DNA of 39,610 nt from a virus. Where the stretch lies: positions 1 to 39,610 of IMG/VR virus record IMGVR_UViG_3300027782_003512, one strand, 5' to 3'. The translations under genes and the position numbers were made by a program. Under the pieces are notes generated by a model that worked only from the letters and a program-made list of their open reading frames with translations, made no database searches and had not been told where the DNA came from. Below, one piece after another: positions 5,307 to 39,465 of this stretch (position 1 is its first letter; every line of letters begins with the position of its first letter).

Positions 5307-5510
5307 ATGGCAACAGGTAAAGTAAAATGGTTTAATGACGCTAAAGGTTTTGGTTTCATTACTCCAGACAACGGTGGCGCAGACTTATTTGCACACTTTT
5401 CACAGATTAATTCAAGTGGCTTCAAAAGTCTACAAGAAGGACAGAGTGTAAGGTTTGAAGTAACTCAAGGTCAAAAAGGCGAGCAGGCTAGCAATATCCA
5501 GCCCGCTTAA
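5307..5510 (+). CDS. csp: Cold-shock domain protein (CspA family)
   Basis: A 67-residue single cold-shock domain with [15 protein letters not shown] (RNP1) and LFAHF (RNP2). It binds single-stranded RNA or DNA and melts mRNA structure, or acts as an antiterminator. It is full length. It stands alone between the DUF454 gene and the tmRNA, with AAAGG about 10 bases before the ATG. A phage copy could aid translation or transcription of structured phage RNAs. Confidence 0.95.
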
Positions 5511-5511
5511 G

Positions 5512-5830
5512 AAATTGTTGTAATTCCTTCGACAAGGATGTGTTCAAGACGCGGGTTCGACTCCCGCCACCTCCACCCAAATGTATTTGAAATAGTATAT
5601 TTAGGTGGGGGTGACCAGGCTATCGATTGGGCAAATAGTTAGAGACGGCAACACGGTAGGCGATGACCGTTAATCAAGCAAATAAACGTAAATGCAAAAG
5701 CAGATACATTCGACTTCAGCGCAATGAGCTTCACTGGTAACACCGTTCGCGGTGCTGCTAATGACAGCAGATTTGCCCTAGCTGCCTAAAAAACAGCGGT
5801 CCGAGGTAGTTATACCTTGTAACCAAAAAT
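5512..5830 (+). ncRNA. ssrA: Two-piece (circularly permuted) tmRNA
   Basis: The acceptor piece comes first: T-arm GCGGG-TTCGACT-CCCGC at 5551-5567, then CACCTCC-A-CC at 5568-5577. The 5' part follows after a 29-base spacer: GGGGGTG at 5607-5613 pairs fully with CACCTCC, restoring a 7-bp acceptor stem. Downstream is a tag frame that can run from GCA at 5694 to TAA at 5787-5789 (31 codons), ending NDSRFALAA, the usual proteolysis-tag C-terminus. The genomic 3' end reads CCC rather than CCA, so trimming or CCA addition would be needed. The tag start is inferred; a shorter tag starting near ANDSRFALAA (from 5757) cannot be excluded. Outer ends are approximate. Confidence 0.88.
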
Positions 5831-5835
5831 AGCAG

Positions 5836-5862
5836 AAAGCACCTTCGGGTGCTTTTCTTTTG
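5836..5862 (+). terminator. Rho-independent terminator after tmRNA
   Basis: AAAGCACC-TTCG-GGTGCTTT stem with a UUCG tetraloop followed by a T-rich run. It ends the tmRNA transcript. Confidence 0.9.
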
Positions 5863-5881
5863 ACTCCTGGTGTAATAATAC

Positions 5882-7718: not shown

Positions 7719-8156
7719 ATGACTGAAAAAATCAAAGGTACACGTACCGAAGAAAATCTTAAAGCTGCCTTCGCAGGTGAATCTCAGGCTAACCGCCGTT
7801 ATTTGTATTTCGCGAACATGGCTGACGTCGCTGGAGACAACGACATTGCTGCTCTATTCCGCAGCACTGCTGAAGGTGAAACTGGACACGCACACGGTCA
7901 CATGGAATTTCTAATTGAAGGTGGTGCTGGTGATCCAGGTACAGGTATGAGTGCTAAAACCACCACCGAAGCTTTGGAATCAGCTATACACGGTGAAACA
8001 CACGAGTACACTGACATGTATCCAGGCATGGCCAAGACTGCTCGCGACGAAGGCTTTGACGAAGTAGCTGATTGGTTTGAAACACTGGCCAAGGCTGAAC
8101 GCAGCCACGCTAATCGTTTTACCAAAGCATTAGTTTCTCACAAAGAAACACAATAA
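7719..8156 (+). CDS. rbr: Rubrerythrin (ferritin-like diiron domain only)
   Basis: A 145-residue erythrin domain. Diiron ligand motifs are [34 protein letters not shown] and [10 protein letters not shown]. The family reduces hydrogen peroxide. The usual C-terminal rubredoxin domain is missing; a separate rubredoxin gene starts 10 bases downstream and probably supplies the electrons. AAGGAG lies at the right distance from the ATG. It would protect against oxidative stress during infection. Confidence 0.93.
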
Positions 8157-8166
8157 GGGGATGACC

Positions 8167-8301
8167 ATGCAACAATACATGTGTACAGTATGTGGTCATA
8201 TTCATGACGAAGCCGCAGATGGCGTGTTTGAAGAACTGGACAAATATCACATCTGTCCAGAATGTGGTTGTGGCAAGGAAGAATACCAACTGGTAGCCTG
8301 A
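8167..8301 (+). CDS. Rubredoxin-like protein, electron donor to rubrerythrin
   Basis: A 44-residue protein with the two rubredoxin knuckles: CTVCG (Cys6, Cys9) and CPECG (Cys30, Cys33), which hold one iron. It is shorter than a free rubredoxin and resembles the rubredoxin tail of a full rubrerythrin, so the pair looks like a split rubrerythrin. The AAGGGG at 8154-8160 is spaced for the ATG at 8167, not the in-frame ATG at 8161. Confidence 0.88.
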   Translation: MQQYMCTVCGHIHDEAADGVFEELDKYHICPECGCGKEEYQLVA

Positions 8302-8363
8302 ATACATAAAATCTGTAGCCTCTTTTAATGTTTTTCACTATGTAGTCTGTGATAATTCTGTTA

Positions 8364-8394
8364 TATAATAAATACGCACACATATGAAGTGTGT
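8364..8394 (+). promoter_or_regulatory. Putative -10 box and 5' hairpin of the pqqA mRNA
   Basis: TATAAT at 8364-8369 has no good -35. A start 7 bases downstream would fall at the foot of the hairpin GCACAC-ATATGAA-GTGTGT (8376-8394). The hairpin is followed by ATTTTT, so it may instead terminate the rubredoxin transcript. Confidence 0.4.
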
Positions 8395-8416
8395 ATTTTT
8401 ATAAAGGAGTACTATT

Positions 8417-8488
8417 ATGTGGACAAAACCAGAAGCAGTTGAAATGCGTTACGGGTTCGAGATCACGATGTATATCGCTAATCGTTAA
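8417..8488 (+). CDS. pqqA: PqqA, precursor peptide of pyrroloquinoline quinone
   Basis: A 23-residue peptide, MWTKPEAVEMRYGFEITMYI followed by ANR, that matches PqqA over its full length. Glu15 and Tyr19 form the conserved E-x3-Y pair that PqqE cross-links to build PQQ. An AAAGGAG ribosome binding site (8403-8409) lies 7 bases before the ATG, and the gene has its own terminator. No pqqB, C, D or E is in the window, so host enzymes would have to process it. PQQ is the cofactor of methanol dehydrogenase and other quinoprotein dehydrogenases, which suggests a methylotrophic or PQQ-using host. The identification rests on the whole-peptide pattern. Confidence 0.9.
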   Translation: MWTKPEAVEMRYGFEITMYIANR

Positions 8489-8504
8489 TCAGAACTAAAA
8501 GAAT

Positions 8505-8527
8505 GGCCCACTGAAGTGGGCCTTCTC
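8505..8527 (+). terminator. Rho-independent terminator after pqqA
   Basis: GGCCCAC-TGAA-GTGGGCC perfect 7-bp stem followed by TTCTCTT. It makes pqqA a single-gene transcript. Confidence 0.85.
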
Positions 8528-8555
8528 TTGACATGTGTATTAAGTATGTTATACT
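8528..8555 (+). promoter_or_regulatory. Sigma70-like promoter for SGNH-epimerase operon
   Basis: TTGACA (8528) and TATACT (8550) with a 16-base spacer, directly after the pqqA terminator. Confidence 0.75.
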
Positions 8556-8587: not shown

Positions 8588-8998
8588 ATGTTAGAGTGTT
8601 TAATTATGGGTGACAGTATTGCAGTAGGCACATCACAGGCTAGACCTGAGTGTGTGAGTTATAGCAAAGGCGGTATCAACTCATATGACTGGCTCAACAA
8701 AAATGTGAGCAAGAGTCCGTATGTGGCCAAACATGTGATTATCAGCCTTGGTGCCAATGATCACCGGGGTGTGAAAACAGAAGCAGAGTTGCGAGTTATT
8801 CGAGAGCTTACTAAAGCTGATCGGGTGTACTGGATTGATCCGGGACAGGATCGTAAACCTATTCCACACGATGCAATCGTTCGGATCGCTAAAGAGTACG
8901 GAGATACAATCATTCTTCGACCTAAAGATCACATGAGTACCGACGGTGTACATCCTACTGGTAAAGGATACAAAATGATTGCTGAGCAAACAAAATGA
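8588..8998 (+). CDS. SGNH/GDSL-type hydrolase
   Basis: A 136-residue protein with all SGNH blocks: GDS (Ser10), Gly28-Gly29, GAND (Asn57) and DGVHPT (Asp119, His122). It probably removes acyl groups from a saccharide or lipid; the substrate is unknown. The domain is short for the family. GGAGG precedes the ATG at 8588, so upstream in-frame starts are not needed. The stop overlaps the epimerase start by 4 bases, suggesting joint action on a surface or virion glycan. Confidence 0.87.
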   Translation: MLECLIMGDSIAVGTSQARPECVSYSKGGINSYDWLNKNVSKSPYVAKHVIISLGANDHRGVKTEAELRVIRELTKADRVYWIDPGQDRKPIPHDAIVRIAKEYGDTIILRPKDHMSTDGVHPTGKGYKMIAEQTK

Positions 8999-10009: not shown

Positions 10010-10405
10010 TTGAGTATGCATCTAGAAGGTCCGTGGCTGTCGACCACAGGTAAACGAAAAGGCAAACAAAAGTTTGCTTCAGCAGAACATGCTAGAACAG
10101 CTCGTGAGTTGGACCAGTCGTGGAAAGATCTGCTGAGGCGTCAGGGCATAGAGCAAGAGGAAAAGAAGCGTGGCCGTGCTATGAATGCTCCGAGCTTGAG
10201 CAGTTCCTACAGCCTCAAGATTCCAGAAGGCCGCGATACCACATCTCATATCAAAAGTGTAGATACTGGTGGTAATGCTGTTTTAAAGCCCAGTCCGGTG
10301 TATACTGGTACTATGGTCAAGGGAATTGCTACGATGCACAAGAGCAATGCTGTACCGGTATTTTCCAATGAAGAGGCGGTAGATATATCCAAAATGCGTC
10401 GATAA
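10010..10405 (+). CDS. Hypothetical phage protein (131 aa), TTG start
   Basis: A basic N-terminal half (STTGKRKGKQKFAS..., ELDQSWKDLLRRQGIEQEEKKRGR), then Ser/Pro/Gly-rich segments ending in EEAVDISKMRR. It resembles small conserved proteins of T4-type phages that infect aquatic bacteria, but no function is known to me. AGGAG at 9998-10002 is 7 bases before TTG 10010 and 13 before ATG 10016, so TTG is the better start. Confidence 0.75.
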   Translation: MSMHLEGPWLSTTGKRKGKQKFASAEHARTARELDQSWKDLLRRQGIEQEEKKRGRAMNAPSLSSSYSLKIPEGRDTTSHIKSVDTGGNAVLKPSPVYTGTMVKGIATMHKSNAVPVFSNEEAVDISKMRR

Positions 10406-18349: not shown

Positions 18350-18649
18350 ATGTCAACAGATACCGCAGTAGAAGAATCAGTAGTTGTAGCACTAAAACCT
18401 CCCGGATTATGGAAGGTGATTTTTCTCAATGATGATTCCACCCCAATGGAATTGGTTATAGAACTGCTAACAGGAATTTTCAAGCACACAGAATCGTCTG
18501 CTAAAGAAGTCACACTGGAAATACATGAAACTGGCAGCGGCGTGGCCGGTGTCTACAGTTTTGAAATCGCCGAACAAAAAGGCATGGAAGCCACAGCAGT
18601 GGCTAGACAGAATGGTTCACCTTTGCGTGTACAAGTGGACCCAGAATGA
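18350..18649 (+). CDS. clpS: Clp protease adaptor ClpS
   Basis: A 99-residue ClpS with the core WKVIFLNDDSTPMELVIELL and the IHETGSGVAGVYSFEIAEQK block. ClpS delivers N-degron substrates to ClpA-ClpP and can block other substrates. It overlaps heme oxygenase by 4 bases. Together with the ClpP-like gene at 35666 it suggests phage control of host proteolysis, but no ClpA is in the window. Confidence 0.93.
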   Translation: MSTDTAVEESVVVALKPPGLWKVIFLNDDSTPMELVIELLTGIFKHTESSAKEVTLEIHETGSGVAGVYSFEIAEQKGMEATAVARQNGSPLRVQVDPE

Positions 18650-19191
18650 GTCTACGAGAAATTACCAAAGACCTCCATCATGAGGCAGAAACTACAACAT
18701 TTGCTAAGATGTTGCTCAGTGGCAAAATTGAAAAACAAGACTACAGAAACTATCTGTACAATCTACTAGCAGTATACGATCCAATCGAATGGTACTGCAA
18801 ACGTCAGGGCTTTCTTGACACCATGCCGGACCTTCCAAGACTAAAGTCTATATACGCAGACTTTCAAGAATTAGACGATGGCTCATACTGTTATCTAACT
18901 CCTGCTACATTAGAGTATCAAGCATACTTGCATAGACTAGGCAATGATCCACAACGTAAAGCACAAATTAAGGCCCATCTATACTGCCGTCACATGGGCG
19001 ACCTATTCGGTGGACAGATCATCAAGAAGCAGGTAGCACATATATCAAGTGGTAAGTTCTACGACTTTGAAAATGGCGATGACATGAAAGGTGCTATCCG
19101 TGCAACACTAACAGACGAACTGGGTGACGAAGCTCGTGTGGCTTTTGAGTATGCTATTAAAATGATGCGAGATTTGTACCGTGGAGAATAA
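18646..19191 (+). CDS. hemO: Heme oxygenase
   Basis: A 181-residue biliverdin-forming heme oxygenase: LREITKDLHHEAET with the proximal heme histidine (His11/12), FAKMLLSGKIEKQDYRNYLYN, and HLYCRHMGDLFGGQIIKK covering the distal helix with its Gly-Gly. It opens heme to biliverdin, CO and iron. It lies between clpS and a bilin reductase with overlapping ends, so heme is probably turned into a reduced bilin in one pathway. Iron release is another possible benefit. Confidence 0.92.
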   Translation: MSLREITKDLHHEAETTTFAKMLLSGKIEKQDYRNYLYNLLAVYDPIEWYCKRQGFLDTMPDLPRLKSIYADFQELDDGSYCYLTPATLEYQAYLHRLGNDPQRKAQIKAHLYCRHMGDLFGGQIIKKQVAHISSGKFYDFENGDDMKGAIRATLTDELGDEARVAFEYAIKMMRDLYRGE

Positions 19192-19864
19192 TGTTTGGAA
19201 CACACTGATAGAGATACAATCTCTATTTGAGAAGTCGTTCGATAGCACAGGTACTGAAGTGTTTGAGCCGGGGATGGATCGGTTTAATCAACCGGGTTGG
19301 GTTAATAGAATTTGGACCAGTGATGATTATCGTAGAGCTCATATCGATGTAGTCGATGCCCGATCCACAAAGGGACTCTGGATGATGCATTGCTGTATTT
19401 TCCCACACATCCATAACCCGGCACCTATTTACGGATTTGATGTTATTGCAGGTAAGAATAAGATCACTGGGTGTTTTCATGATTTCAGCCCTGCTGGAGA
19501 TATCGAACATCACCTTATTGATTGGTTTGCTGCAGAAACTCAAAAATTACAGTGGAATAAAACACGGAAACTACCCGAGTGGGCAGAACGTATTTTCACA
19601 GGATCTATGATTGCTGCGGGCAATGTCAGCGATCCGGAAGAACTAGAACAGATCATGGATCTTGTAAAACTTACCACAGAAGTATATCTCAAGCATGTAG
19701 GTGATACTAATCGCACAGCTAAGAACACTACTCACAATCAAAATTACTACGCACAAAATCAGAAACAAAACCCTCATACACCGAAGGTAATGGTTAGTTT
19801 AGGGCTTTCAGAGGACGATGTACAGCATTTCATCCAAGAGTGCCTGTTCCCTGAAATTCGCTAA
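19181..19864 (+). CDS. Ferredoxin-dependent bilin reductase (PcyX/PebS type)
   Basis: A 227-residue HY2-family protein. The core reads HCCIFPHIHNPAPIYGFDVI, then GKNKITGCFHDFSPAG, as in ferredoxin-dependent bilin reductases, with a conserved Asp near 87 and histidines at 76 and 78 near the expected bilin site. The family reduces biliverdin to phycobilins. Phage members are known (PebS in cyanophages, PcyX from metagenomic phages); which product this one makes cannot be read from sequence. The GTG at 19181 overlaps heme oxygenase by 11 bases; no ATG start is in frame nearby. Confidence 0.87.
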   Translation: MENNVWNTLIEIQSLFEKSFDSTGTEVFEPGMDRFNQPGWVNRIWTSDDYRRAHIDVVDARSTKGLWMMHCCIFPHIHNPAPIYGFDVIAGKNKITGCFHDFSPAGDIEHHLIDWFAAETQKLQWNKTRKLPEWAERIFTGSMIAAGNVSDPEELEQIMDLVKLTTEVYLKHVGDTNRTAKNTTHNQNYYAQNQKQNPHTPKVMVSLGLSEDDVQHFIQECLFPEIR

Positions 19865-24224: not shown

Positions 24225-24581
24225 ATGCGTAAGTTAATAATGACGTTCCTATTCTGCCTAACTAGCTCTATAGCCAACGTCCAGTCGCAAGAAATTTCCG
24301 CTGTTGAACCAACGCCAGAGTTTTCCAAAGCAGTCATGCAAGATCCCGCTTACATTGAATCTGGCAAACAAGTCTGGGACGGTCAGTGTCGCCATTGCCA
24401 CGGCAACAGTGCCTACCCAGGCAAAGCGCCCAAACTCAAGCCCTCGAGCTACCAACCCGACTTTGTGTATGACCGTGTCACCAATGGTTTTCGCAAAATG
24501 CCCGGTTGGAAAGCCGTATTCAACGAAAAACAGCGGGTTGGTGTCACTGCATACATAATGAGTGATTCATTTTCTCCCTAA
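24225..24581 (+). CDS. Periplasmic class I c-type cytochrome
   Basis: A 118-residue protein with a signal peptide (1-22) and a single heme c site, CRHCH (Cys55, Cys58, His59), in GKQVWDGQCRHCHG. Met92 in FRKMPGW is the likely distal ligand. Small cytochromes of this kind carry electrons in the periplasm; in methylotrophs they accept electrons from PQQ-dependent methanol dehydrogenases, but this one cannot be assigned to that role from sequence alone. AAGGAG precedes the ATG, within a cassette repeated before the gene at 24609. Confidence 0.87.
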   Translation: MRKLIMTFLFCLTSSIANVQSQEISAVEPTPEFSKAVMQDPAYIESGKQVWDGQCRHCHGNSAYPGKAPKLKPSSYQPDFVYDRVTNGFRKMPGWKAVFNEKQRVGVTAYIMSDSFSP

Positions 24582-37353: not shown

Positions 37354-37437
37354 GGAGATGTAGGAAAATTGGTAACCCCAGTGGACTGTAAATCCGCCGC
37401 TTCGGCACTGCTGGTTCGACTCCAGCCGTCTCCACCA
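37354..37437 (+). tRNA. tRNA-Tyr(GTA)
   Basis: GGAGATG acceptor pairs with CGTCTCC, anticodon GTA at 37388-37390, long variable arm (class II), T-arm GCTGG-TTCGACT-CCAGC, encoded CCA. Confidence 0.93.
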
Positions 37438-37443
37438 AGTTTT

Positions 37444-37519
37444 GCCTCGTTCATATAACGGTCTATTATATCCGCCTGTCTAGCGGAATACAGGGGTTCG
37501 ACTCCCCTACGAGGCGCCA
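37444..37519 (+). tRNA. tRNA-Asp(GTC)
   Basis: GCCTCGT/ACGAGGC acceptor, anticodon stem TCCGC/GCGGA with loop CTGTCTA (anticodon GTC), discriminator G, encoded CCA. Confidence 0.93.
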
Positions 37520-37525
37520 GTTTAT

Positions 37526-37601
37526 TCCCCAGTAGCACAGCGGTAGTTGCACTTGACTGTTAATCAAGGTGTCCGTGGTTCGATCCCACGCTGGGGAGCC
37601 A
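37526..37601 (+). tRNA. tRNA-Asn(GTT)
   Basis: TCCCCAG/CTGGGGA acceptor, anticodon stem CTTGA/TCAAG with loop CTGTTAA (GTT), discriminator G, encoded CCA. Confidence 0.94.
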
Positions 37602-37608
37602 GATATAT

Positions 37609-37682
37609 TCCGGTGTAGTATAATGGCAGTGCGGCGGTCTCCAAAACCGCTAGTGGGAGTTCGATTCTCTCCACCGGAGCCA
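37609..37682 (+). tRNA. tRNA-Trp(CCA)
   Basis: TCCGGTG/CACCGGA acceptor, anticodon stem GCGGT/ACCGC with loop CTCCAAA (CCA), discriminator G, encoded CCA end. Confidence 0.93.
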
Positions 37683-37690
37683 AACAATTT

Positions 37691-37765
37691 GCACGATTCG
37701 TCTATCGGTTAGGACGCTGCCCTTTCAAGGCGGAAAGACGAGTTCGATTCTCGTATCGTGTACCA
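37691..37765 (+). tRNA. tRNA-Glu(TTC)
   Basis: GCACGAT/ATCGTGT acceptor with a G-U first pair, anticodon loop CTTTCAA (TTC), T-arm CGAGT-TCGATTC-TCG, encoded CCA. Confidence 0.9.
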
Positions 37766-37772
37766 ATTTAAT

Positions 37773-37846
37773 GCGTGGTTAGTTAAATGGTATAATCAAA
37801 CGTTGCCAACGTTTAGTCAAGAGTTCGATTCTCTTACCCCGCACCA
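37773..37846 (+). tRNA. tRNA-Gly(GCC)
   Basis: GCGTGGT/ACCCCGC acceptor with one T-C mismatch, anticodon stem AAACG/CGTTT with loop TTGCCAA (GCC), encoded CCA. Confidence 0.88.
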
Positions 37847-37849
37847 AAT

Positions 37850-37941
37850 GCCAGCGAGACTTGGAAGTCAGAGAGGTTTTATAAACCTTTTAGCGCCAGA
37901 TTAGCGTTCTTGAGAGGGTTCGATTCCCTCCGCTGGTACCA
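37850..37941 (+). tRNA. Atypical class II tRNA with TAT anticodon
   Basis: GCCAGCG/CGCTGGT acceptor, anticodon stem GAGGT/ACCTT with 7-base loop TTTATAA (anticodon TAT at 37880-37882), a variable arm with a 5-bp stem AGCGC/GCGTT, T-arm GAGGG-TTCGATT-CCCTC, encoded CCA. The D-loop is very short. TAT reads the Ile codon AUA, yet tRNA-Ile is class I, so the identity is unclear (Ile-like or Leu-like). Confidence 0.65.
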
Positions 37942-37982
37942 AAGATTATTTCGTAAATATCTCTTGAATTTGTATACTGTAT

Positions 37983-37988
37983 TAAATA
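37983..37988 (+). promoter_or_regulatory. T4-like late promoter motif (ATTAAATA)
   Basis: TAAATA ends 5 bases before the ATG at 37994, which has no Shine-Dalgarno sequence. Confidence 0.45.
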
Positions 37989-37993
37989 TCATT

Positions 37994-38548
37994 ATGCACT
38001 ACAAATTCATTGATCTGCCAAATGTAGATAAGATACAAGAACAAATCCTAAGAAACTTACCTCAGGATCTAAAATCACGTACTCTTTACATGACATTCGC
38101 AGACGATGCATTTAAAAAGTGTGTGCCGTTGGTTCATGCTGTGGAGACTATAAAACCATGGAGCGAGATTGATGTAATCGGACTCATGGTGTGTATGCCC
38201 CACGCAAATATTCCAATTCACACAGATCTAGGAAAAATTATAGATACAAAATATTCTTTGAATATTCCAATATATAATTGTGATCGTCCGTATACAAGTT
38301 TTTATAAACCATTAGAAGGCACAGCCCAAAATATATGGGTTCTACCTGATGCATTACCTAGCGGTGACGATCAAACGTTAATTAGATATCATGAGAATGA
38401 TGTGCAAGAGATTGCAAGGATGCATCTTTATAAACCTGCATTCTTTAACACACAAATTCCACATGGGATTATAAATCCCACTGATGATGTGAGAATAGTT
38501 GTAAGTATTAGATTTTCGACTCCGTTCGACTTATCTAAGTTTAATTAA
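37994..38548 (+). CDS. Fe(II)/2-oxoglutarate-type oxygenase-like protein (184 aa)
   Basis: A double-stranded beta-helix pattern with H-x-D (His76, Asp78 in IPIHTD) and a distal His157 in PHGIINPTDDVRIVVSIRF with a following Arg, as in 2-oxoglutarate oxygenases and aspartyl-hydroxylase-like proteins. The substrate is unknown; phage members may modify proteins or nucleic acids. It lies alone inside the tRNA cluster with its own late-type motif and no ribosome binding site, so it looks like an independent insertion or late gene. In-frame sequence upstream (from 37910) overlaps a tRNA and is not used. Confidence 0.75.
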   Translation: MHYKFIDLPNVDKIQEQILRNLPQDLKSRTLYMTFADDAFKKCVPLVHAVETIKPWSEIDVIGLMVCMPHANIPIHTDLGKIIDTKYSLNIPIYNCDRPYTSFYKPLEGTAQNIWVLPDALPSGDDQTLIRYHENDVQEIARMHLYKPAFFNTQIPHGIINPTDDVRIVVSIRFSTPFDLSKFN

Positions 38549-38555
38549 AATTTAT

Positions 38556-38632
38556 ATAGCGGTGCCAGAGAGGCCTAATGGCGCAGTCTGCAAAACTGTT
38601 GTTCGTGGGTTCAAATCCCACCCGCTATTCCA
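38556..38632 (+). tRNA. tRNA-Cys(GCA)
   Basis: ATAGCGG/CCGCTAT acceptor, anticodon stem GCAGT/ACTGT with loop CTGCAAA (GCA), T-arm GTGGG-TTCAAAT-CCCAC, discriminator T, encoded CCA. Confidence 0.92.
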
Positions 38633-38636
38633 GTAT

Positions 38637-38713
38637 GCCCTTGTACGCTAATTGGTAGTGCGGATTCTCTCAAAAGGAGTTGGCTGTCTGTTCGAATCAG
38701 ACCAGGGGTACCA
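38637..38713 (+). tRNA. tRNA with CAA anticodon (Leu) but class I variable loop
   Basis: GCCCTTG/CAGGGGT acceptor with two wobble pairs, anticodon stem ATTCT/GGAGT with loop CTCAAAA (CAA), T-arm GTCTG-TTCGAAT-CAGAC, encoded CCA. The variable loop is only 5 bases (TGGCT), whereas tRNA-Leu normally has a long arm. The anticodon reads UUG. Confidence 0.75.
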
Positions 38714-38719
38714 AGTTAT

Positions 38720-38811
38720 GGAAGATGATGCAGCGGGGTTGGTCCTGCGACTGGCCTTGAAAACCAGGTTCTCTTAACAGGGATGGGGTTCGACTCCTCC
38801 GTCTTCCGCCA
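38720..38811 (+). tRNA. tRNA-Ser(TGA)
   Basis: GGAAGAT/GTCTTCC acceptor, anticodon stem with a C-A closing mismatch, loop CTTGAAA (TGA), long variable arm (class II), discriminator G, encoded CCA. Confidence 0.88.
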
Positions 38812-38816
38812 AATAT

Positions 38817-38890
38817 TCCCGGATAGTTAAATGGTATAACGGAGGCTTGATAAGCCTTTATTACAAGTTCGATTCTTGTTCTGGGAACCA
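38817..38890 (+). tRNA. tRNA-Ile(GAT)
   Basis: TCCCGGA/TCTGGGA acceptor, anticodon stem GAGGC/GCCTT with loop TTGATAA (GAT), T-arm CAAGT-TCGATTC-TTG, discriminator A, encoded CCA. Confidence 0.9.
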
Positions 38891-38899
38891 ATTTTATAT

Positions 38900-38973
38900 C
38901 TCCGTGTGGCGTAATGGTAGCGTTCGTGTTTTGGGGACATGAGGTGAAGGTTCGATTCCTTCTACGGAGACCA
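38900..38973 (+). tRNA. tRNA-Pro(TGG)
   Basis: CTCCGTG/TACGGAG acceptor, anticodon stem CGTGT/ACATG with loop TTTGGGG (TGG), T-arm GAAGG-TTCGATT-CCTTC, discriminator A, encoded CCA. Confidence 0.92.
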
Positions 38974-38981
38974 AACAATTT

Positions 38982-39056
38982 GGGGGCAGCAGAGGGCTGC
39001 GGTGGTTCCTTGCAAGAATCATGACTACAAGGGTTCGATACCCTGGGCCTCCACCA
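38982..39056 (+). tRNA. tRNA-Ala(TGC)
   Basis: Anticodon stem GGTTC/GAATC with loop CTTGCAA (TGC). The acceptor GGGGGC pairs with GCCTCC and carries a G3-U70 pair, the alanine identity element. The D-loop is very short and pair 7-66 is mismatched. Encoded CCA. Confidence 0.82.
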
Positions 39057-39082
39057 ATAATTTTTTAACCAAGGAGAATGAT

Positions 39083-39106
39083 ATGAAACGTTCAGATAAA
39101 CGTTAG
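39083..39106 (+). other. Seven-codon mini-ORF with strong ribosome binding site
   Basis: MKRSDKR, preceded by AAGGAG (39072-39077) at good spacing, between two tRNA genes. Too short to call a protein; it may load ribosomes or be chance. Confidence 0.3.
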
Positions 39107-39142
39107 TGTCATCTTTGACCCCCGTATGGTCTTAGATGGCAC
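39106..39142 (+). ncRNA. Hairpin between tRNA-Ala and tRNA-Lys
   Basis: GTGTCATCT (39106-39114) pairs with AGATGGCAC (39134-39142), with one G-U, around GACC/GGTC. The stem directly follows the mini-ORF. Confidence 0.5.
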
Positions 39143-39168
39143 GTAAAAGAAAATCTATTACGATCCAT

Positions 39169-39243
39169 CCACAGCAAACTTTGATGGCGAAGTATCCGGC
39201 TCTTACCCGGACTAACTGAGTTCGATTCTCAGGCTGTGGACCA
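39169..39243 (+). tRNA. tRNA-Lys(CTT)
   Basis: CCACAGC/GCTGTGG acceptor, anticodon stem TCCGG/CCGGA with loop CTCTTAC (CTT), T-arm CTGAG-TTCGATT-CTCAG, encoded CCA. Confidence 0.92.
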
Positions 39244-39246
39244 TAT

Positions 39247-39321
39247 GGGGGTATAATTCAAAGGCTAGAATAGCCGGCTTTTAACCGGTCTATCAGGGTT
39301 CGAATCCCTGTGCCCCTACCA
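39247..39321 (+). tRNA. tRNA-Lys(TTT)
   Basis: GGGGGTA/TGCCCCT acceptor, anticodon stem GCCGG/CCGGT with loop CTTTTAA (TTT), T-arm CAGGG-TTCGAAT-CCCTG, encoded CCA. Confidence 0.92.
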
Positions 39322-39392
39322 TATAAAAACACACTTCCGACAGCAGGCGGAACTTAGAAGATGTCCATTCGGGTGAGTGTGTTTTTATATGG
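39319..39392 (+). repeat. 17-bp perfect inverted repeat joining two tRNAs
   Basis: CCATATAAAAACACACT (39319-39335) and its exact reverse complement (39376-39392) enclose a 40-base loop that has its own stem TTCCG/CGGAA. The left arm starts in the CCA of tRNA-Lys and the right arm ends in the first two bases of tRNA-Met. Confidence 0.85.
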
Positions 39393-39465
39393 TAACGTAG
39401 CATAATGGTCGTGCACCTCCTTCATACGGAGCAAGGTGCTGGTTCGAATCCAGCCGTTACCACCA
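39391..39465 (+). tRNA. tRNA-Met(CAT)
   Basis: GGTAACG/CGTTACC acceptor, loop TTCATAC (CAT), T-arm GCTGG-TTCGAAT-CCAGC, encoded CCA. Fully paired position 1-72 argues against an initiator. An AUA-reading Ile2 tRNA is also possible. Confidence 0.85.

Follow-up and report, generated by a model that had tools for sequence, protein, structure and literature searches.

Cyanophages that carry psbA provide just the part of a host pathway that is consumed most rapidly. For PQQ synthesis, the closest described systems come from methylotrophs and their phages. Methylophilaceae hold one pqqBCDEFG set beside multiple pqqA genes (PMC4109929), and another PQQ producer, grown on methanol, had a solitary copy among its two most expressed pqqA genes (PMC9851590). 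The Lake Baikal phage populations VP_139 and VP_266 are T4-like and have predicted Methylophilaceae hosts; VP_266 encodes PqqA, for which the authors proposed boosted methanol oxidation (PMC7678222, 2020). The idea of a phage pqqA is thus not wholly new, having been reported for a Methylophilaceae phage in 2020 (PMC7678222). Host control of phage metabolic genes has also been described, and PMC10976474, citing Zeng and Chisholm (2012), attributes control of pstS and further cyanophage genes to host PhoB.

We evaluated a solitary pqqA gene in a viral fragment that is linear and 39,610 bases long. This whole stretch of DNA is called the window, and gene absences refer to that fragment. The initial annotation had suggested that it could be a minimal auxiliary metabolic gene by which a phage supplies only the precursor peptide. 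As far as our searches reach, what is new is how widely solitary pqqA occurs among cultured methylophages, the occurrence in phages of a host pqq box together with its geometry, and a covarying leader.

Identity and layout of the pqqA gene

The features of the window used in this analysis are as follows, with the pqq boxes treated further below.

5475-5880, permuted tmRNA, matched by the beta_tmRNA model (140 bits) and by tmRNA_permuted
8302-8318, + strand, weak distal pqq box ATACATAAAATCTGTAG (1.0 bits; 23 bp 5' of the proximal box; second best in 8261-8420)
8325-8341, + strand, proximal pqq box TTAATGTTTTTCACTAT, a putative host-regulator site (degenerate; 5.6 bits with the host-derived matrix)
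8364-8369, + strand, -10 element TATAAT, starting 39 nt past the start of the box
8370-8398, + strand, predicted 5'-end hairpin of the pqqA transcript (fold z -3.6)
8403-8409, + strand, ribosome binding site AAAGGAG, 7 nt 5' of the ATG, read from the sequence
8417-8488, + strand, pqqA, 23 codons plus stop (ATG at 8417-8419, stop ending at 8488)
8505-8529, + strand, intrinsic terminator of pqqA (7-bp stem at 8505-8522 with 6 G-C pairs, T-rich tail; fold z -3.9)
8528-8555, + strand, sigma-70 promoter of the next gene (TTGACA-16-TATACT, 11/12 matches)
8588-8998, GDSL/SGNH hydrolase gene (Pfam), the next gene 3' of pqqA

The pqqA frame translates to MWTKPEAVEMRYGFEITMYIANR followed by the stop. 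Two PqqA models matched this peptide above their curated cut-offs: PF08042 (Pfam PqqA) with an E-value of 8.9e-9 and 35.6 bits (cut-off 21.1), and NCBIfam TIGR02107 with 1.5e-9 and 37.4 bits (cut-off 20). Window pqqA was the only TIGR02107 match in the whole record, and 14 control genomes searched in the same way gave no match. The E-x3-Y cross-link pair is present as Glu15 and Tyr19, in agreement with the initial annotation of a complete 23-residue PqqA.

The signals flanking the gene also agreed with that annotation in most respects. It had named a ribosome binding site and a terminator belonging to pqqA, and both were recovered, the former as AAAGGAG at 7 nt from the ATG and the latter as a 7-bp GC-rich stem with a T-rich tail. 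Since the promoter of the hydrolase gene begins after the terminator, pqqA is set apart from the downstream gene. The proposed extent of 8376-8527 needs amending in one point: the promoter, comprising the proximal box and the -10 element, lies upstream of its start.

The hairpin at the predicted 5' end was compared among relatives, where it takes the form ACATACT-loop-AGTATGT directly 3' of the -10 element. In 25 sequences, 94% of cells of the homologous 7-bp stem were paired, and four of the seven pairs changed on both sides, a level of covariation that exceeds slid or shuffled controls. Host pqqA leaders likewise tend to fold. This comparison supports the view of a solitary gene with a short predicted transcript and a hairpin at its 5' end, and such a short mRNA would be expected to gain protection from a 5'-terminal hairpin. 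The stem is followed by T5 and also matches a terminator scan. Rubrerythrin and rubredoxin genes (7719-8301) lie just 5' of pqqA and are kept in some relatives. The hairpin as merely the rubredoxin terminator was rejected because it is kept in relatives, some of them with no rubredoxin match within ~5.5 kb upstream. At the level of sequence analysis, we thus confirmed window pqqA as a real, intact 23-residue gene with its own predicted promoter and terminator.

The remainder of the PQQ pathway was searched for in the same fragment. The window had no match to the PqqB model or to the PQQ_2 repeat of PQQ dehydrogenases, and nothing above cut-off for the PqqE model; the PqqC model also had no match there, a weaker negative because that search matched no control genome. 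PqqB, PqqC, and above-cut-off PqqE were equally absent from 34 long viral records, namely the window and 33 further ones from pqqA-bearing relatives or other phages. The earlier description of a pqqA unaccompanied by pqqB, pqqC, and pqqE therefore stands within the window. Phage-family genes in the window include those for ribonucleotide reductase, endolysin, exonuclease, and PstS. With the viral record, these phage genes, and a conserved gene order, pqqA is a host-type metabolic gene located within a viral genome.

Other parts of the window hold genes that merit mention in their own right. A heme oxygenase is followed by a ferredoxin-dependent bilin reductase at 18646-19864 (Pfam), the latter being PcyA-like in NCBIfam at a score below cut-off. 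This pair is unusual for a phage whose host is presumably non-photosynthetic. A small cytochrome c of the Cytochrome_CBB3 family with a signal peptide-like start (24225-24581) could be a phage electron carrier gene, and 15 tRNA genes form an array at 37354-39465.

Distribution and conservation of phage pqqA

A tblastn search of PqqA against 50,697 phage records identified the gene in nine Methylophilales phage records (P19250A, Venkman, MEP301, MEP401, MEP402, and four of Melnitz), nine being the number found and not the share of a known total. These records represent four lineages and include small genomes of 35-44 kb, and the cultured phages in which pqqA was found all infect Methylophilales. 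The gene is annotated in none of the nine, with the Melnitz-1 record having an opposite-strand frame annotated at the pqqA position, and the papers that describe MEP301, MEP401/402, Venkman, and Melnitz leave phage pqqA unmentioned. Further matches came from a single record of an uncultured podovirus and from two records labelled Acinetobacter. The two latter matches (Acinetobacter phage MD-2021a) were set aside: the record examined, CAKLQF020000010.1 (L513), consists of ppk, a PqqA-like frame, pqqB, and pqqC, a context in which the stretch looks bacterial.

Viral contigs were collected with a pattern fixed on residues 1-14 and free at residues 15-23, which returned at least 120 contigs. E15, T17, and Y19, along with the 23-residue length, were present in 120 of 120 viral contigs among the matches listed, so the cross-link residues noted in the window are also kept in related phages. 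Codons 15-23 of viral pqqA gave a pN/pS of 0.12; with pS near saturation at 0.72 and pN at 0.08, the peptide is under purifying selection. Chance similarity to PqqA was ruled out by the profile scores, this residue conservation, and the low pN/pS.

Gene order is conserved as well. In relatives, pqqA lies upstream of a gene resembling that at 10010-10405 of the window, a SleB-like lysis gene, and a gene for a 496-aa membrane protein, and around it the genes for rubrerythrin, GDSL hydrolase, and an epimerase come and go. The largest related contig with this order is 364 kb, and the gene sought in related phage contigs was thus found there in a stable setting. Among 20 other contigs of related phages, selected mainly for having no pqqA in the fetched stretch, pqqA was located elsewhere in two and absent throughout in 18, which indicates a gene that is common in the phage family and not universal or essential. 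A nucleotide search for close phage relatives of the window found none.

A pqq box shared by hosts and phages

The motif search was trained solely on 44 Methylophilaceae-type pqqA upstream regions, with no viral sequences in the training set, and resulted in a 17-bp near-palindrome, CTMATGAWWWTCATKAG. The literature was searched for an earlier description of a pqqA palindrome, with no relevant result. At a score of at least 8 bits, the box was found upstream of pqqA in 93% of host genes and 63% of 142 viral genes, compared with 3.7% of viral sequences after dinucleotide shuffling and 1.8% of other stretches of the same viral contigs. The exact sequence occurs at 14 sites in ten Methylophilaceae genomes, 13 of them 5' of pqqA (at ~94-146 bp) and one 5' of pqqB; a reversed control pattern had zero occurrences in these genomes. 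The box is also found in some non-Methylophilaceae genomes.

Spacing to the promoter is similarly constrained. In hosts a -10-like hexamer is offset from the box by 61 nt in 28 of 41 cases and by 62 nt in the other 13 (baseline 3%), and in viruses the offset peaks at 38 and 39 nt (26/89 each; baseline 6%), placing the viral box one 23-bp step closer to the -10 element than the host box. Mean second-site scores were also highest at a 23-bp offset in the host set and in the viral set, with few second sites reaching 2 bits. The pattern AATG-N2-4-TTCACTAT-N20-24-TATAAT was found in viral loci in 12 distinct contexts, all 12 upstream of pqqA. Four cultured phage types carry the box (Melnitz, Venkman, P19250A, and MEP301), and it is missing in MEP401/402.

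Most relatives of the window phage have the box TTAATGATTTTCACTAT or similar, scoring 8-14 bits. Phages and hosts therefore share a site at a matching promoter position, with a weak match in the window itself, where some other sites outscore the 5.6-bit box of pqqA. Those of the other sites that were placed lie in coding sequence or where it begins, and probably reflect chance in AT-rich DNA. The shared box is unlikely to stem from host contamination, because eight of the ten strong-box viral contigs checked match phage protein families (longest frame) and four cultured phage types have the box as well. As no -35 hexamer was seen and the box is centered ~43 bp before the likely transcription start, the natural reading is that the factor binding the box would be an activator.

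Possible role of phage pqqA and alternative explanations

We consider it probable that the locus serves a large tailed phage as a self-contained cassette for refilling PqqA, supplying the substrate of PQQ under host pqq control. The regulator that hosts normally use for their own pqqA would also turn on the phage gene, host PqqD/PqqE would cross-link the phage peptide at Glu15 and Tyr19, and host enzymes would complete the cross-linked peptide to PQQ, so that PQQ-dependent dehydrogenases of methanol (or of other alcohols or sugars) could stay supplied with cofactor during infection. PqqA is consumed one for one and PqqB-E are persisting catalysts, and PqqA alone would therefore need continuous making once host expression fails. 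On this reading, phage PqqA would lead to PQQ in infected cells, with a gain to the phage. The benefit of one more pqqA is not obvious, however, because hosts already hold several copies: all 120 sampled Methylophilaceae genomes have pqqA, mostly as several copies (1-12). Set beside a lone pqqBCDEFG set (PMC4109929), these copies also speak for the refill reading, since the hosts themselves follow a like scheme. The proposal of a minimal auxiliary metabolic gene is supported in part, with the reality of the gene, its phage context, and its conservation borne out. A broader reading, judged from sequence comparisons and in our view evenly poised, is that unrelated phage lineages of 35 to 364 kb with PQQ-using betaproteobacterial hosts may carry a one-peptide cassette on an undescribed host pqq operator, leaving its timing to the host regulator.

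Identical peptide variants in some phages and hosts, the host-like promoter architecture, and the absence of pqqA from many related phages would all fit a passenger, that is, a host cassette of box, promoter, pqqA, and terminator that was captured and is kept by recurrent transfer and not by phage benefit. We find this quite improbable given the low pN/pS in viral copies, the retention of pqqA in place while its neighbors come and go, and its carriage by four separately isolated lineages, small genomes included. Phage PqqA might otherwise act as a decoy or modulator whose binding to PqqD/PqqE would slow PQQ synthesis or divert it, or the boxes might titrate the host regulator. By reasoning only, a small peptide on the maturation complex could be a competitor of host PqqA, and a box on many phage genome copies could bind the regulator. 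A decoy, however, would be free to lose the cross-link pair and its surrounding residues, which are unchanged in 120/120 contigs among the matches listed, and the fixed distance of the box to the -10 element plus a complete gene fits expression instead of titration; an inhibitory role of either kind seems very remote.

Both the gene and the family of the phage suggest a PQQ-using betaproteobacterial host, and the nature of that host affects which dehydrogenases would be served. The link to methylotrophs drawn in the initial annotation is strong for the gene family, as seen from the nine Methylophilales phage records, whereas for this contig the host is a matter of prediction. The cassette could operate as described in a non-methylotrophic betaproteobacterium, with PQQ going to glucose or alcohol dehydrogenases and not to methanol oxidation, which is a variant of the main reading and does not exclude it. 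The C-terminus of window PqqA, GFEITMYIANR, is typical of Burkholderiales, and genomes such as those of Burkholderia, Polaromonas, and Derxia share endings of this type. The beta tmRNA model finds weak matches in Methylophilaceae genomes, and the window tmRNA is not Methylophilaceae-like; it is matched at greatest length by a few Burkholderiales genomes and nowhere as long in the sampled Methylophilaceae, although all of these matches are short or modest. The box in genomes outside Methylophilaceae is compatible with this variant too. Methylophilaceae-like MYVMNR endings in many close phage relatives and the Methylophilales hosts of all cultured pqqA phages found argue the other way, and we regard a non-methylotrophic host as unlikely.

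If phage pqqA does refill the PQQ substrate under host control, a 23-codon gene would be a common phage way to sustain methanol oxidation in infected marine and freshwater methylotrophs, and it would offer a clean test case for phages that carry the consumed component of a pathway and not its catalysts. A host pqq operator is also indicated, and its regulator can be sought directly. Ordinary gene callers overlook genes of this kind, as the opposite-strand frame in Melnitz-1 illustrates.

Comparison with known systems

The psbA gene of cyanophages differs from phage pqqA in that its product is a protein subunit, whereas PqqA is a 23-residue substrate that cofactor synthesis destroys. The extra solitary pqqA genes of Methylophilaceae and other methylotrophs likewise combine many pqqA with a single pqqBCDE (PMC4109929, PMC9851590), but those copies are chromosomal and the one described here is viral. 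The cyanophage genes under PhoB (PMC10976474) resemble this locus in pairing a phage gene with a host-regulator site and so tying it to the metabolic state of the host. For PhoB the regulator is known and binding has been shown; here the site is a candidate, is specific to pqq genes, and precedes a gene whose product is a consumed substrate. The Lake Baikal populations VP_139 and VP_266 resemble our case in that a phage, VP_266, encodes PqqA. There, pqqA accompanies a phage methanol dehydrogenase and was seen in one population, whereas here it is alone in the window, comes with a predicted promoter, a hairpin, and a candidate host box, and is widespread among phages.
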